Of a stretch of 64,000 bases of DNA, positions 22,475 to 63,583 are shown one piece after another. The number at the start of each line of letters is the position of its first letter. Positions within the stretch are counted from its first letter, which is position 1. The notes under the pieces are model-generated. The model searched no databases, was not told the DNA's origin, and was given only the letters and a program-made list of their open reading frames with translations. The position numbers were made by a program, and so were the translations under genes. The DNA lies in assembly GCA_023078555.1 (NCBI GenBank), contig CM041197.1, positions 3,476,999 to 3,540,998 on the forward strand, read 5' to 3'. The stretch comes from Ulva prolifera. Taxonomy: Eukaryota; Chlorophyta; Ulvophyceae; Ulvales; Ulvaceae.

Positions 22475-25400
22475 ATGGGGGCACCACGCGCGCGAGCGCA
22501 GTCTCCGCGCGAGAGCCCGGAGATGGTCGCGCTTTGCGGTCTCGAAGGTGAGCTCAGGGTGCATGTGCACCTCCGTGAGAGCTCCGACAGTCAGCACAGG
22601 TCGCGCTCGCTCTACATCTGTGCGTCAGCGTTGGAGCGCAGCAGCGTCCTGAGGGGTCTTTCCCGCGGCATCGGGAGCGACGAGGCGGTGTCGCTGGGGA
22701 TCTCTGCGTCGGCCTTCGAGGCGTGGCTTGACATCGTTAACGACCGCTCCCCGCGGTCGCGGCCCCTCAAGTGGATGACGGCGCCCCAACTCCGACAGCT
22801 GCTGCAGGTGCGCTGCCGGCAGCCCTTCACCACAGAATAGCCAGAATTCCGCTTTCGGATTCGTTCCGATGCAGTTTTAACCCGAACTGTGCTGAAGTAC
22901 TGGGCGTGGGGGGTGTAGAGATACGTGTGTACCCTGACACGTTCACGGATCATGATGCCATCAATGATTAACATTTGTGCGCGGTGCCGTGCGTCCATGC
23001 TGCAACATGGGGTGAGGCGATACAGACGCATAGTGACGTCAACGGACGCAGCTCAGCAGTTGTCGAAACCTGATGCAACCATCACTCGCGGTCACTCGTA
23101 TGCGTTTCACGGGCAGTACACTGTGTTGCGGTCTGACGCGTGGCAGAAATCAAGGAACTTACGCAACGCGCCGTAGAGGTGGCTCGCTCTTGCAACATGT
23201 GCCACACTGCAGGGGCGCGCCGGTGCTACTCTATTCGATGTGATCGAGGGCACTCGGGCACTGTGCGCAATCGCACGTGCATGTGTTCGTGAAATATCCA
23301 ATCTAGTTGCACGTGCACTCTGCGATGCAACCAAGCACGTGTCAAATCAAGCAAATCTTGTGCTTTGTCCTGGAGGGTCAGTGTCACGAAGCGCTCAAAT
23401 GTGATCCGTCTCCAGCAATGTCAACACAAATATTTCAAACGAACCATCTTCCACACCCACAGCCTGTTTTCTCCCGTTCACTCTTTTGTAAATTCTTCCA
23501 CACCCACAGCCTTGGGCGGCACTTCCAATCAGAGTTGCATTAATACGCGTATCTTTCGATTTCGGTACGTTTGATACGCGTATTTTAGGCTTGCGTACTT
23601 TATCAGCGTACAGTACGCGCGTACGTTTCGGAGTAAGGCGATTTCGGAGAGCCTGGAGCTCTGCATTGCTCCAATCAGAGTCTGCAATGTGGTGCACCTC
23701 TAGCCACAAGGCCAAAGAAGGTTTTGAACATCCCTTGCATTGCATAACGAACCTGAGTGACCTGATCATCTGATTGACTGCTAGTCCATTGCTATCACCA
23801 TTCTCTGCAATAGTGTGCCTAAGCACAGATGACTCACTGTCGGACAATCACCGTGGCACCACGTCTGGCCATCATGACGCGTGACTTGGCTGTAGGCGCT
23901 GTGACGCGCCTGGCATGCAGCCCATGGGCTTGGATCCTCCGCCACCAAGCCAGCCATGTAGCCCATACAGTGTACTTTTCAACCCCCCCTAATTAGAGCC
24001 AACTTACTATACGCGTATTGTTGCTCAACATACTTTATCACGAAACGTACTAATGCAACTCTGCTTCCAATTTGGAAGAGAGTCTCAACGTTATAGACAT
24101 AATTAACAAAAGAGTGAACGGGAGAAAACAAACACAAAACTATAGACAAACAATAACATGTTACAATGCACGAGTGGTGAGTTGCTTGCTGCTCGGAGGT
24201 GGGTGGAGGCTGGAGGCGGGGATGTCGATAATCCGAGGACAAGCCCCCAGCTCCTGGACCCCCCAGAACCCCTCCCGGGGAGGGGTTCTGGGGGGTCCAG
24301 GAGCTGGCGGTTTGTCGGCCACAGGCTCTGCATGTGCCTGGCGGCTGCGGCCGCGGCTGCGGCCGCGGCTGAGGTTGCGGGTGAGGCAGATGCGACTGCA
24401 CCTGTCCACCACAAAACGCCCTGCCTTGCTCGCTTTGACCTTGTAACACAACACCCCTGAGACACACACTGCAGGCACTCTCGCTGTTATCATCCAAACA
24501 GCACCACACGGCGATCACCAGTATTGGTGCCGCCATTGACTCAATGGCATCGGCGGTTGCACCAATATTGATCATGCCATATATGCATTCATCTGCAGCA
24601 TGATATGAGCTTTGCATCGATCACAACCTGGGAGTGTCAAGTGGCCATGAAATCGTGTAGGCTTAAATTGGTTCACGATTGTGGGCTGGCAGCGTTCACT
24701 TGCTAGTTATTTACTTGTTATTTCCTCGATGAATGTAACTGTAGCTAGCTGCAGTGTGATTCTGGGGTGCCTGGGCTACGCCTCCACATGTGGATGCATC
24801 CATGCATGGGGGTACATTTAACACAAAGACTGGGCAAGTCTGCTACAGCTAGCATACACACAATCTCATGGACAAGTGCACAGTCCATCATCAGTGGGAG
24901 GCATCTGCTTGAGGGTGTCTGCTTCGGGTTGTGCCGAGGTCATATGACCACATATGTTTTACAAGCCCGCGCTCAAAAATTCTTAAGGCCAGTAGCACTG
25001 CCAATACCACGTATGACTACGTATGTCCGTGCCAAGGGATAACCCCTCCAGGGTATGTGCTGCACTGTCCGACCCCATGCACATGCTCTGCTCCTGCTCA
25101 GGCTTCGCTGCGGCCGCAGGTGGCGGTGGCTCTCGGGGACGCGCACACGGCGGCGGCGGCGTGCGCCGACATCGCCGACCTCCTCTTCTTCCGCCTCGGA
25201 AGAACGCAGCACTCCGCCCCCCTGCACAGGCTGCAGAAGGCCACAGCGCTCGGGGTCTGCGCCTGTCCTCCTGCACACATCACATGCATCTGTTGGCCTG
25301 ACAGCTCAGCAACGTGCATAGCCTCATCAGAGTGTGAATTCCATTGACGTGTGCTTTTTGTCGCATGGCCGCTGTGGCGGATGCCATTGCCCACACCATC

Positions 25401-26984
25401 AGAATGTAGATGTCACACTTTACACGCATGGCATGTGGCCCCAAAGTTCTGGATTTGGCAAAGTATGTACAGGTTGACATTTGCACATGCATAGGGACCT
25501 ACCGCATGCCTCTTCAATGACACAGTCCTACTCTGCAGGTGCTGGAAGGCCTACCTCCCATACTCCAAGCCGCAATCATCGAGGCCGCACCCTCCTCCGA
25601 TCTCTCGGCCCTCCTAGCCACCCTCCCCTTCTGGGCCGCTTTCACCGCGCTCAAGGTGCATGCCGCCGCCGCAGCCACCACCGCACCGGCCGTGCGCACC
25701 TGGCTCGAGGGCACCGGCCTGCACCTCTCCGCAACTTTCGCGCCGCCGCCGCACAACCCCGCCGCCGCCCCGCACGTCTCCACCCTAGAGCTCACCGGCC
25801 TCCTCCCCCACGGCCCGTCCTGGGGGGCCGCGCGCCATGCGTACGCCGACGGCGACATGGCGGCCCTCATCCGCAGCATCTGTAGCCACCGCGGCCTCGA
25901 GGAGCTATCGCTGTCCGGCGTCCGCCTCGGGCCGGAGAGCGCGGCCGCGCTGCGCGCCGGGCTCCCGGCCATGTACGCGCTGCGGCGGCTAGAGGTGTGC
26001 AACACCGGCGCCGACCTGCACGACCCAGCGCTCGGCGGCGTGGCCCTGCAGCAGCTCCACCTAAGCCACGTCCGCGCCGGCCCCGGCGCATGCGACGCCG
26101 GCGGCTTTGCAGCGCAGCTCACCAATAGGGAGCAGCTGACTGCGCTATCCCTCACGTCGTGCCGCCTCGGCGTGGCGGGCTGGCGGCAGGTGATCGCGAA
26201 GGTCTCGGAGCTCCCGTACCTGCACACCCTGGTGCTGGAGCGCAATCGCCACCTGCGGGAGGCCCTGAGGGAGATGCTCGTCGCAGAGAGCATGCGTGCG
26301 GATGATGGCATCGACGCGCCGGCGACGCTCCTGCGATGGCCAAGTCTCGAATTGCTGAGCCTCAGGAGCTGCAGCAGCCATACCGCTGAAGGCAAATCAT
26401 CTGTGGCCACCATTGACACGATCGCATGTGGCTCCAACGCTGGCCTCGTGGCGTTCGTCCAGGGGCTGACAGGACTCACGTCGCTCACCCTGGCACAGGC
26501 CGGGCTCGACGGGGAGGACGCGGCGGCGGCTGTCGCGCCGCTGCGGCGGCTGCGCGCGCTGAAGCTGCTCGGCAATCGGATCAACGGCGCCGGTATGCGT
26601 GCGCTCGCGCCGCGCCTGCCGCACCTCGAACACCTCTCGAGCCTCGATCTCAGCCTGAACCAGCTCGGCGACGAGGGGGCCGCCGCCCTTGCGGCCACAG
26701 CACCATTCCTCCACCAGCTGGAGGTGTGCAAGCTGTGCCACAACGGCATCGGAGACGCGGGCGCGCGGGAGGTGTTTGCGGCTGTGACGGCCGTGCGCGC
26801 GCTGCGCGACCTGCGCCTCGTAATGAATTCGATCACCGACGTGGTCGCGTTAGATCTCGCGGCGGCACTGCCGCGCCTGCGGTCGCTGGAGAGTGTGCAC
26901 CTGCACCACAACGCGGTCGGCCGGGCAGCGCAGGCCGCGGTGCGGTCGTCCGCGAGGAGCGTCGGCTGCGACGTGCGCTTCTGA
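22475..26984 (+). CDS. BTB-like / leucine-rich repeat protein, three-exon model
   Basis: The model joins 22475-22807, 25102-25254 and 25539-26984, all phase 0 (donors GTGCGC and GTCTGC; acceptors CTGCTCAG and CTCTGCAG), giving 643 residues. The start ATG has good context (GCCATGGGG). Exon 1 resembles a divergent BTB domain: SLYICASALERSSVLRGLSR then EAVSLGISASAFEAWLDIVN. Exon 2 is an alanine-rich helical stretch that could be BACK-like. Exon 3 opens with VLEGLPPILQAAIIEA and then has RNI-type LRRs of 26-30 residues: LEELSLSGVRLG, LTALSLTSCRLG, LTSLTLAQAGLD, LRALKLLGNRIN, LSSLDLSLNQLG, LRDLRLVMNSIT, LESVHLHHNAVG. BTB-LRR proteins often act as CUL3 ubiquitin-ligase adaptors; that role is inferred. 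Exon 3 is very secure. Joining exon 1 across a 2.3-kb, repeat-filled intron is the uncertain step. Confidence 0.65.
23466..23493 (+). mobile_element. 28-bp retroposon tail, TTGTAA family B
   Basis: The 28-bp insert GTTTTCTCCCGTTCACTCTT then TTGTAAAT is flanked by a perfect 19-bp direct repeat TCTTCCACACCCACAGCCT (23447-23465 and 23494-23512). The duplication is nearly as long as the insert. Confidence 0.9.
24100..24140 (-). mobile_element. Retroposon tail, TTGTAA family B
   Basis: The minus strand reads GTGTTTGTTTTCTCCCGTTC then ACTCTTTTGTTAATT. The flanking 8-bp direct repeat TATAGACA is perfect (24092-24099 and 24141-24148). Confidence 0.8.
24247..24307. repeat. Perfect 61-bp palindrome
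   Basis: Two exact 30-bp arms (24247-24276 and 24278-24307) flank a single central G. The left arm begins CCAGCTCCTGGACCCCCCAG. Weaker symmetry (GACAA/TTGTC) extends a further 8-10 bp on each side. It could extrude as a cruciform or fold into a very stable RNA hairpin. Confidence 0.97.
24418..24446 (+). mobile_element. Short retroposon tail, TTGTAA family A
   Basis: GCCCTGCCTTGCTCGCTTTG followed by ACCTTGTAA matches the family A 3' end. A possible direct repeat (CACAAAAC and CACAACAC) is too weak to count as proof. Confidence 0.55.
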
Positions 26985-63232: not shown

Positions 63233-63510
63233 CAAAAAACGCATGGAATCGGTGGCCAGGGGGGCGATCCCACACGTGGGGAGGGGCGCGAGCCTCTAAG
63301 GCCCGAAAGGCAAAGGCCCGGTGGGCAGTCAGGTAGGCGAGTGCTTATTGGCTTGCCTGCCGCACATGGTAGCCCAGGATTGGAAAGGTATATTGCCCTT
63401 GCTTTATAGCCCTTACTGCCTCTAAAGGTAGCCATACAATATTGCATGCTGTACATATGTGCATTAAATGCATGTGTACAGTGATTTTACTATACTTCAG
63501 CAAATCTAAT

Positions 63511-63583
63511 TATTACAAAAGAGTGAACGGGAGAAAACAAACACTGAAACCGAATCTCATCCGCATCAACATCAACATACACT
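63511..63583 (-). mobile_element. Retroposon, TTGTAA family B, beside the terminal (CA)n tract
   Basis: The minus strand reads TGTTGATGCGGATGAGATTC, then GGTTTCAGTGTTTGTTTTCT and CCCGTTCACTCTTTTGTAA. Its 5' part matches the 35791 copy. The 5' side abuts the (CA)n tract. CAAATCTAAT (63501-63510) and CGAATCTCAT (63551-63560) match at 8 of 10, but the second lies in sequence shared with the 35791 copy, so target duplication is unproven. Confidence 0.7.

Follow-up and report, generated by a model that had tools for sequence, protein, structure and literature searches.

Among the long interspersed nuclear elements (LINEs), those with a restriction-like endonuclease carry a CCHC knuckle of the form CX2-3CX7-8HX4C, followed by RH and by a PD-(D/E)XK site with the lysine in KX2KY (PMC5678591). 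The CRE, R2, R4 and NeSL clades are mostly target-specific, while HERO has many non-specific families (PMC4640811). Zepp, an L1-clade LINE with an (A)n end (PMC3747384), shows frequent 5′ truncation and nested and clustered insertion (PMC8226300). TGTAA is found at the 3′ end of UnaL2, as TGTAA repeats, and of green-algal RTEX LINEs, one of them with (CTTGTAA)n (PMC3747384). UGUAA is in addition the reported polyadenylation [poly(A)] signal of derived chlorophytes, with a peak near −17 from the cleavage site, experimental proof of the signal being lacking at that time according to the authors (PMC1868727). Here, we describe a family of short inserts, family B, in a stretch of 64,000 nucleotides from Ulva prolifera (assembly GCA_023078555.1, CM041197.1, positions 3,476,999 to 3,540,998 of the forward strand; hereafter the window), and its relatives in the searched genome of 88.9 Mb and 44 contigs. 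Family B is very probably the debris of one LINE that replicates by target-primed reverse transcription with a terminal UGUAA and, probably, with early stopping.

The search for a full-length parent succeeded and led to a LINE with a single open reading frame (ORF) of 1,197 residues that includes a reverse transcriptase. The C1 copy was read fully and gives 1,197 residues from the ATG, an ORF of 3.6 kb and a 3′ untranslated region (UTR) of ∼106 bp. A preliminary description of the window had placed the family-B motif at the end of the inserts. This is also its position in the parent, where CTCTTTTGTAA is terminal rather than internal and ∼106 bp separate the stop codon from the last base of GTAA. 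At several loci the ORF end ...GLRYDAGLEDAILPD-stop is found directly upstream of the motif in the same orientation. A genome search with the last 505 residues returned at least 87 rows (85 of 1,599 candidates scored). For nine of them the open frame spans 1,199 codons, interrupted in one case by an internal TAG.

Pfam places RVT_1 at residues 481–681 of the ORF (E = 6.2e-11) and, at E values up to 1, finds nothing else, so there is no match to an apurinic-type endonuclease. A comparison with PDB at E up to 1 gave four matches, three of them to R2 proteins; these three are weak (E 0.006–0.013) and cover the reverse-transcriptase part, which is perhaps of the R2 kind. When the C-terminal residues are inspected by eye, a Cys/His cluster (CKCSAGVAAEPDHAMVC) is seen, followed by RHD, GD...AVD and KRDRF, and these motifs make an endonuclease of the restriction-like type likely. 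The four best-matching long copies (C1, C4, C5 and C7, of which the C5 copy has lost the canonical 3′ end) differ by 0–3 of 2,995 bases; because of this near-identity part of family B must have moved very recently, but as the best-scoring of at least 87 rows these copies represent only the youngest part of the family.

At up to two mismatches, the 19-mer of the 3′ end occurs at 1,014 + 1,027 = 2,041 genome sites, and its reversed pattern at none. Duplications were scored where a perfect direct repeat of at least 8 bp occupied the position expected for a target-site duplication, in a sample of 78 distinct 3′ ends (19-mer at up to two mismatches, or exact TCACTCTTTTGTAA) from the window and from 90 loci, L001–L090. 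These loci are not a random choice: 30 extend as far as the 3′ UTR start, eight carry the motif, 12 contain the second insert family of the window (family A), 35 are reverse-transcriptase loci and five are long parent copies. Exact duplications of 8–23 bp are present at 37 of the 78 copies, compared with a mean of 0.63 after swapping of the 3′ flanks (200 swaps), and at 35 of 76 when copies with the same 3′ flank are collapsed. Their mean length is 13 bp and they are found in every length class (6/16 below 30 bp, 12/28 at 30–70 bp, 7/15 at 70–130 bp and 10/17 above). The earlier proposal of retrotransposed, 5′-truncated copies that end at one fixed 3′ position between target-site duplications, which depended on such duplications recurring at other copies, is supported by the 37 duplications against 0.63 and by the parent with its terminal motif. 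As in a LINE, a reverse-transcriptase ORF is combined in family B with 5′-truncated copies (aligned 14 to 1,600 bp) that share their 3′ end and are flanked by target-site duplications varying in length. A life cycle of the long terminal repeat (LTR) type is excluded by the truncated copies together with the duplications, although no separate search for terminal repeats was made.

Within the window, CCCGTTCACTCTTTTGTAA is matched six times at up to three mismatches, with a mean of 0.00 in 100 shuffles and 1.5 ends predicted from the genome average. Four matches are exact (23473+, 35833+, 48311+ and 63513−) and two have one mismatch (24104− and 63209+). The corresponding inserts are as follows.

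23466..23493, + strand: family-B insert of 28 bp (26 bp of element plus AT), with a 19-bp duplication TCTTCCACACCCACAGCCT at 23447–23465 and 23494–23512.
24100..24140, − strand: family-B insert of 41 bp including four extra bases, with an 8-bp duplication TGTCTATA.
35791..35857, + strand: family-B insert, GTCTTCT variant, 58 bp of which align to the parent 3′ UTR; imperfect duplication (15/18).
48295..48331, + strand: family-B insert of 37 bp, with a 13-bp duplication ACAGCAAGCACTT.
63196..63232, + strand: family-B insert of 37 bp with terminus TTTTTTAA plus five bases and an 11-bp duplication CAAAAAACGCA.
63513..63617, − strand: longest of the six family-B copies, of which the anchored alignment covers 82 bp and BLAST ∼105 bp.

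All four perfect duplications listed in the preliminary description were reproduced at the stated lengths, as was the imperfect one at 35791 (14/17 or 15/18), and the 5′ extensions of the copies at 35791 and 63511 match the sequence of longer copies. The shared body and TGTAA end that it had assigned to all six copies are retained in part. The six 3′ ends are present, but the body is not identical throughout, the match at 35833 being preceded by GTCTTCT instead of GTTTTCT, and the terminus is TGTTA at 24104 and TTTAA at 63209. For the copy at 63513–63531(−) the exact-repeat test (8 bp or more) gave no duplication, and its 5′ side merges into a TG microsatellite. The aligned lengths of the six copies are scattered (26, 32, 35, 37, 58 and 82 bp).

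Genome-wide, 2,041 copies reach 19 bp from the end (at most two mismatches), 1,097 reach 51 bp (22-mer, at most three), 497 reach 127 bp (20-mer, at most two) and 32 reach the start codon at ∼3,700 bp (24-mer, at most three); the patterns and mismatch limits vary between the distances, so the ratios are approximate and divergence may explain part of the decay. The reversed patterns gave zero matches at all four distances. On these figures, roughly three in four ends are too short to contain a complete 3′ UTR. All 78 sampled copies align as suffixes of one parent copy, their upper length of 1,600 bp being that of the reference. Most copies are stumps, small enough to be taken for ordinary small insertions.

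This decay has two readings, an enzyme that stops early or the purging of long copies. Dominance of the short copies through selection against long insertions would agree with the 32 copies that still extend to the start codon and with the four long copies, which are nearly identical and therefore young. On the other hand, the steep loss from 2,041 to 497 within 130 bp would be hard to obtain by selection between inserts of 30 and 120 bp, and four of the six short window copies have the exact 3′ end; we consider selection unlikely, although it deserves attention, and favour early stopping. The large number of short copies could also point to an independent, non-autonomous family resembling short interspersed nuclear elements (SINEs), with a promoter of its own instead of random 5′ truncation. 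This is extremely improbable, with scattered 5′ ends and every copy aligning as a suffix of the parent; there is no common 5′ end such as a SINE would have, and a promoter was not sought. Capture of filler DNA at double-strand breaks would fit the 3′ junctions, where 34 of 37 copies have a variable number of additional bases, and the untemplated 5′ bases of some copies, but not the fixed 3′ end and the 8–23 bp duplications at 37 of 78. It is highly improbable as a general explanation, while some of the 41 copies without a duplication may have arisen in this way.

The relation between the terminal UGUAA and polyadenylation is seen in one full-length copy. At C1:1592187, TTTTGTAA is followed by the 13 bases TGAGCGCAGGTGT and then by A54, all within a duplication of 16–19 bp that has its first three A in common with the tail. 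The copy at C4:3275341, which is identical to it across 2,995 bases, has the same 13 bases after TTTTGTAA, followed by other sequence instead of poly(A). Because the C1 and C4 copies have the same 13 nt after TGTAA, a transcript of the C4 copy, or of a sister, most likely ran past the end of the element, was cleaved in host sequence 13 nt beyond UGUAA, received a poly(A) tail and was inserted. Only one of the 78 copies has a run of at least eight A in the 40 bases next to GTAA, and insertions normally begin at or just past UGUAA.

The gap between GTAA and the duplication is 0–11 bases (0 in three of the 37 copies, 1–11 in the other 34), and some of its bases are slightly diverged duplication, for example at C1:2553 and C2:78332. 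The base that follows GTAA is A in 35, C in 23, T in 14 and G in six of the 78 copies. The extra bases could derive from trimmed flanking sequence of the source or have been added without a template. Their use as source tags is only suggestive: the extra bases of one copy match the flank of a long copy ending at C1:2813178 in eight of nine positions, and the overall p of 0.016 is driven by this match, with p = 0.098 for matches of five or more. At C4:3275075 (−), a family-B copy of ∼20 bp continues via CCAAACC to a second TGTAA where the duplication begins, as if copying had begun at the next downstream signal (locus L070). An LTR-type element with an integrase-like ORF, identified by eye at C2:3630300–3633800 (L086), has TTTGTAA 27 bases past the stop codon, consistent with UGUAA as a general poly(A) signal in this genome.

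Across 35 distinct sites the two positions immediately preceding the duplication are only weakly biased (a pyrimidine at −2 in 28, A at −1 in 17), and there is no single fixed target sequence of the kind used by the mostly site-specific R2, R4, NeSL and CRE clades. Family-B ends are clustered: among the first 100 sites listed, all exact, all on C1 and with segmental duplicates included, 19 of the 99 neighbouring gaps are shorter than 1 kb, against 0.9 for a uniform distribution, and all four orientation pairs occur. Nesting into earlier copies is seen at C1:776212, C1:11064931 and C1:1592187. Locus L042 (C1:774492–777511) contains seven family-B ends within 3 kb, in both orientations and two of them tail to tail.

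In the mechanism that we propose, the family-B RNA would be translated into one protein that contains a reverse transcriptase and, judged by motif, a restriction-like endonuclease, and would terminate in UGUAA, which is also its poly(A) signal. The protein would nick DNA targets of almost any sequence, and complementary DNA would be primed from the nick, starting at or within ∼11 nt of UGUAA. Copying would usually halt within ∼50–130 nt, after which the second strand would be cut 8–23 nt away and the gap filled to give the duplication. Of these elements, we observed the ORF, the motif at the terminus, the duplications, the profile of truncation, the recent activity and, in one copy, poly(A) 13 nt past UGUAA; the type of endonuclease, the internal start at UGUAA, the early stopping and the green-algal host are inferred. 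We tentatively suggest, as a possibility that falls somewhat short of an even chance, that UGUAA has a double role, as the poly(A) signal with cleavage ∼13 nt out in host DNA and as the start of copying, so that the poly(A) tail is usually left out. The element would then mainly write micro-insertions of ∼15–130 bp, well over a thousand of them in this genome, and a part of these would carry a tag of at most 11–13 nt from the flank of their source.

Several observations weigh against the single-LINE interpretation or its details. Exact duplications are absent from 41 of the 78 copies, for which nesting, microsatellites, age and the exact-match rule may be responsible, and at C1:776212, one of the 37 positive copies, the 'duplication' itself consists of family-B sequence. 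The top PDB match of the protein (E = 0.0016) is an unrelated synthase that aligns over the low-complexity N-terminal part. The putative endonuclease part (last 300 residues) has no Pfam or relevant PDB match; the spacing of its Cys/His cluster is CX1CX9HX3C instead of the published pattern, and KRDRF stands in place of KX2KY. A structured 3′ end of the RNA was rejected, the one 3′ UTR copy that was folded showing no notable fold (z = +1.3). For the presumed green-algal host, three tandem units of TTTAGGG have no match in the assembly. The uneven search patterns behind the length counts and the restriction of near-identity to the youngest copies belong here as well.

The preliminary description had also taken the TTGTAA shared by families A and B as a sign that one reverse transcriptase mobilizes unrelated RNAs. 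The family-A terminus GTCCTTGTAA is found at 944 + 928 = 1,872 genome ends (at most three mismatches), and the window contains the following copies.

12887..13067, − strand: family-A copy of 181 bp, terminus GTCCTTGTAA plus CA, with a 13-bp duplication CACATGGTGCAGA.
20166..20459, − strand: family-A copy of ∼300 bp with AACACACCCAGG on both flanks, a duplication read by eye.
39688..39733, + strand: insert of 46 bp with terminus GGCCTTGTAA plus AAA, a family-A-like 3′ end and a 10-bp duplication ACACGTGATG.

Family-A copies have common sequence up to ∼350 bp upstream of the end, and a repeat of 9 bp or more is present at nine of 22 ends, compared with 1.95 with swapped flanks. CAC follows 18 of the 22 ends, or six of ten without the 12 that were picked by a pattern requiring C (one of the ten is LTR-element sequence). 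In translations upstream of five family-A loci no recognizable ORF was found, and the reverse-transcriptase loci that were translated (8 + 5 of 35) read as LTR elements by eye. The 29 apurinic-endonuclease matches do not lie near the family-A ends listed (100 of 1,872), some of which were compared by eye. At L074 (C1:43111) and L075 (C1:57901), family-A copies adjoin arrays of ∼117-bp tandem repeats near the start of C1.

That one enzyme moves A, B and other unrelated RNAs through TTGTAA, as a LINE moves its SINEs, would be in keeping with the hexamer common to two abundant families (1,872 and 2,041 ends), with a family A for which no reverse-transcriptase parent was found, and with an A-like copy of different body (terminus TTTCCTTTGTAA, C1 locus from 1726955) flanked by a 16-bp CA-rich duplication. 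Family B nevertheless carries its own ORF with a reverse transcriptase, and the hexamer contains the reported poly(A) signal, which accounts for it. The junctions also seem to differ, with 0–11 variable bases before the duplication in B and CAC after the A ends, subject to the selection by the C-requiring pattern. Outside A and B, duplications accompany two of 329 TGTAA ends, close to the background of 0.39% for all pentamers; of these two, the first is a B copy terminating at a second TGTAA and the second is A-like. A general class of TGTAA-ended retrocopies beyond the two families was not seen. An earlier all-pentamer test on the window only (TGTAA 8/62, background 4.5%) was swamped by tandem repeats and was replaced by the test on 329 ends. 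Family A may have a LINE of its own: (CTTGTAA)n is among the 3′-repeats of green-algal RTEX LINEs (PMC3747384), and by this analogy an RTEX-type LINE is a plausible home for it, which is why we regard a shared enzyme as improbable. The idea as first put forward is not supported, although the search gave no parent for A and its mobilization by B keeps a small probability. A LINE with its own reverse transcriptase remains our preferred origin for family B.

Two ORFs of the window and one of the genome are recorded here for completeness. The ORF at 7180–9297 (−) is built from units of 38 residues in tandem (APQDVANIWWSFATLGLVVPAETHDALQSATVRLAPAM), recognized by eye, and matches FAST_1 of Pfam; we take it to resemble octotricopeptide repeat (OPR) or RAP proteins. 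Together with the UGUAA usage, this ORF suggests that the host is a chlorophyte. At 25521–26984 (+) there is an ORF for a leucine-rich-repeat protein. A separate type of ORF, with an apurinic-type endonuclease domain in a 1,574-residue open frame, is found with equal score at several places in the genome and is probably another LINE.

If many LINE insertions are only 15–130 bp long, repeat annotation may overlook much retrotransposition in genomes of this type and read it as small indels. Family B offers a natural case of a poly(A) signal as the edge of an element, in which source loci might be traceable via short flank tags, and a system that could allow direct measurement of how early a LINE reverse transcriptase stops. 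Judged by titles and the beginnings of abstracts, the literature search found nothing matching on very short LINE copies or on restriction-like-endonuclease LINEs in green algae, although the print record may hold such a report.

Compared with the restriction-like-endonuclease LINEs (R2, R4, NeSL, HERO, CRE and Utopia), family B is alike in its single ORF and perhaps also in its reverse transcriptase, which has weak R2 matches, and in the residues read by eye near the C terminus, where RH and D...D...K-like residues come after a Cys/His cluster. It differs from them in being dispersed instead of site-specific, and no N-terminal zinc finger is among its Pfam matches. With Zepp and ZeppL (L1 clade; Chlorella, Coccomyxa and Chlamydomonas) it shares frequent 5′ truncation and nested, clustered insertion, but its terminus is UGUAA and its ORF has no apurinic-type endonuclease match. 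The TGTAA 3′ end is common to family B, UnaL2 and RTEX; theirs consists of unit repeats, whereas family B normally has a single UGUAA that doubles as the poly(A) signal. Dispersed LINEs that leave truncated copies are a known kind; what is unusual in family B is the scale of the truncation and an element edge that lies exactly at the poly(A) signal.

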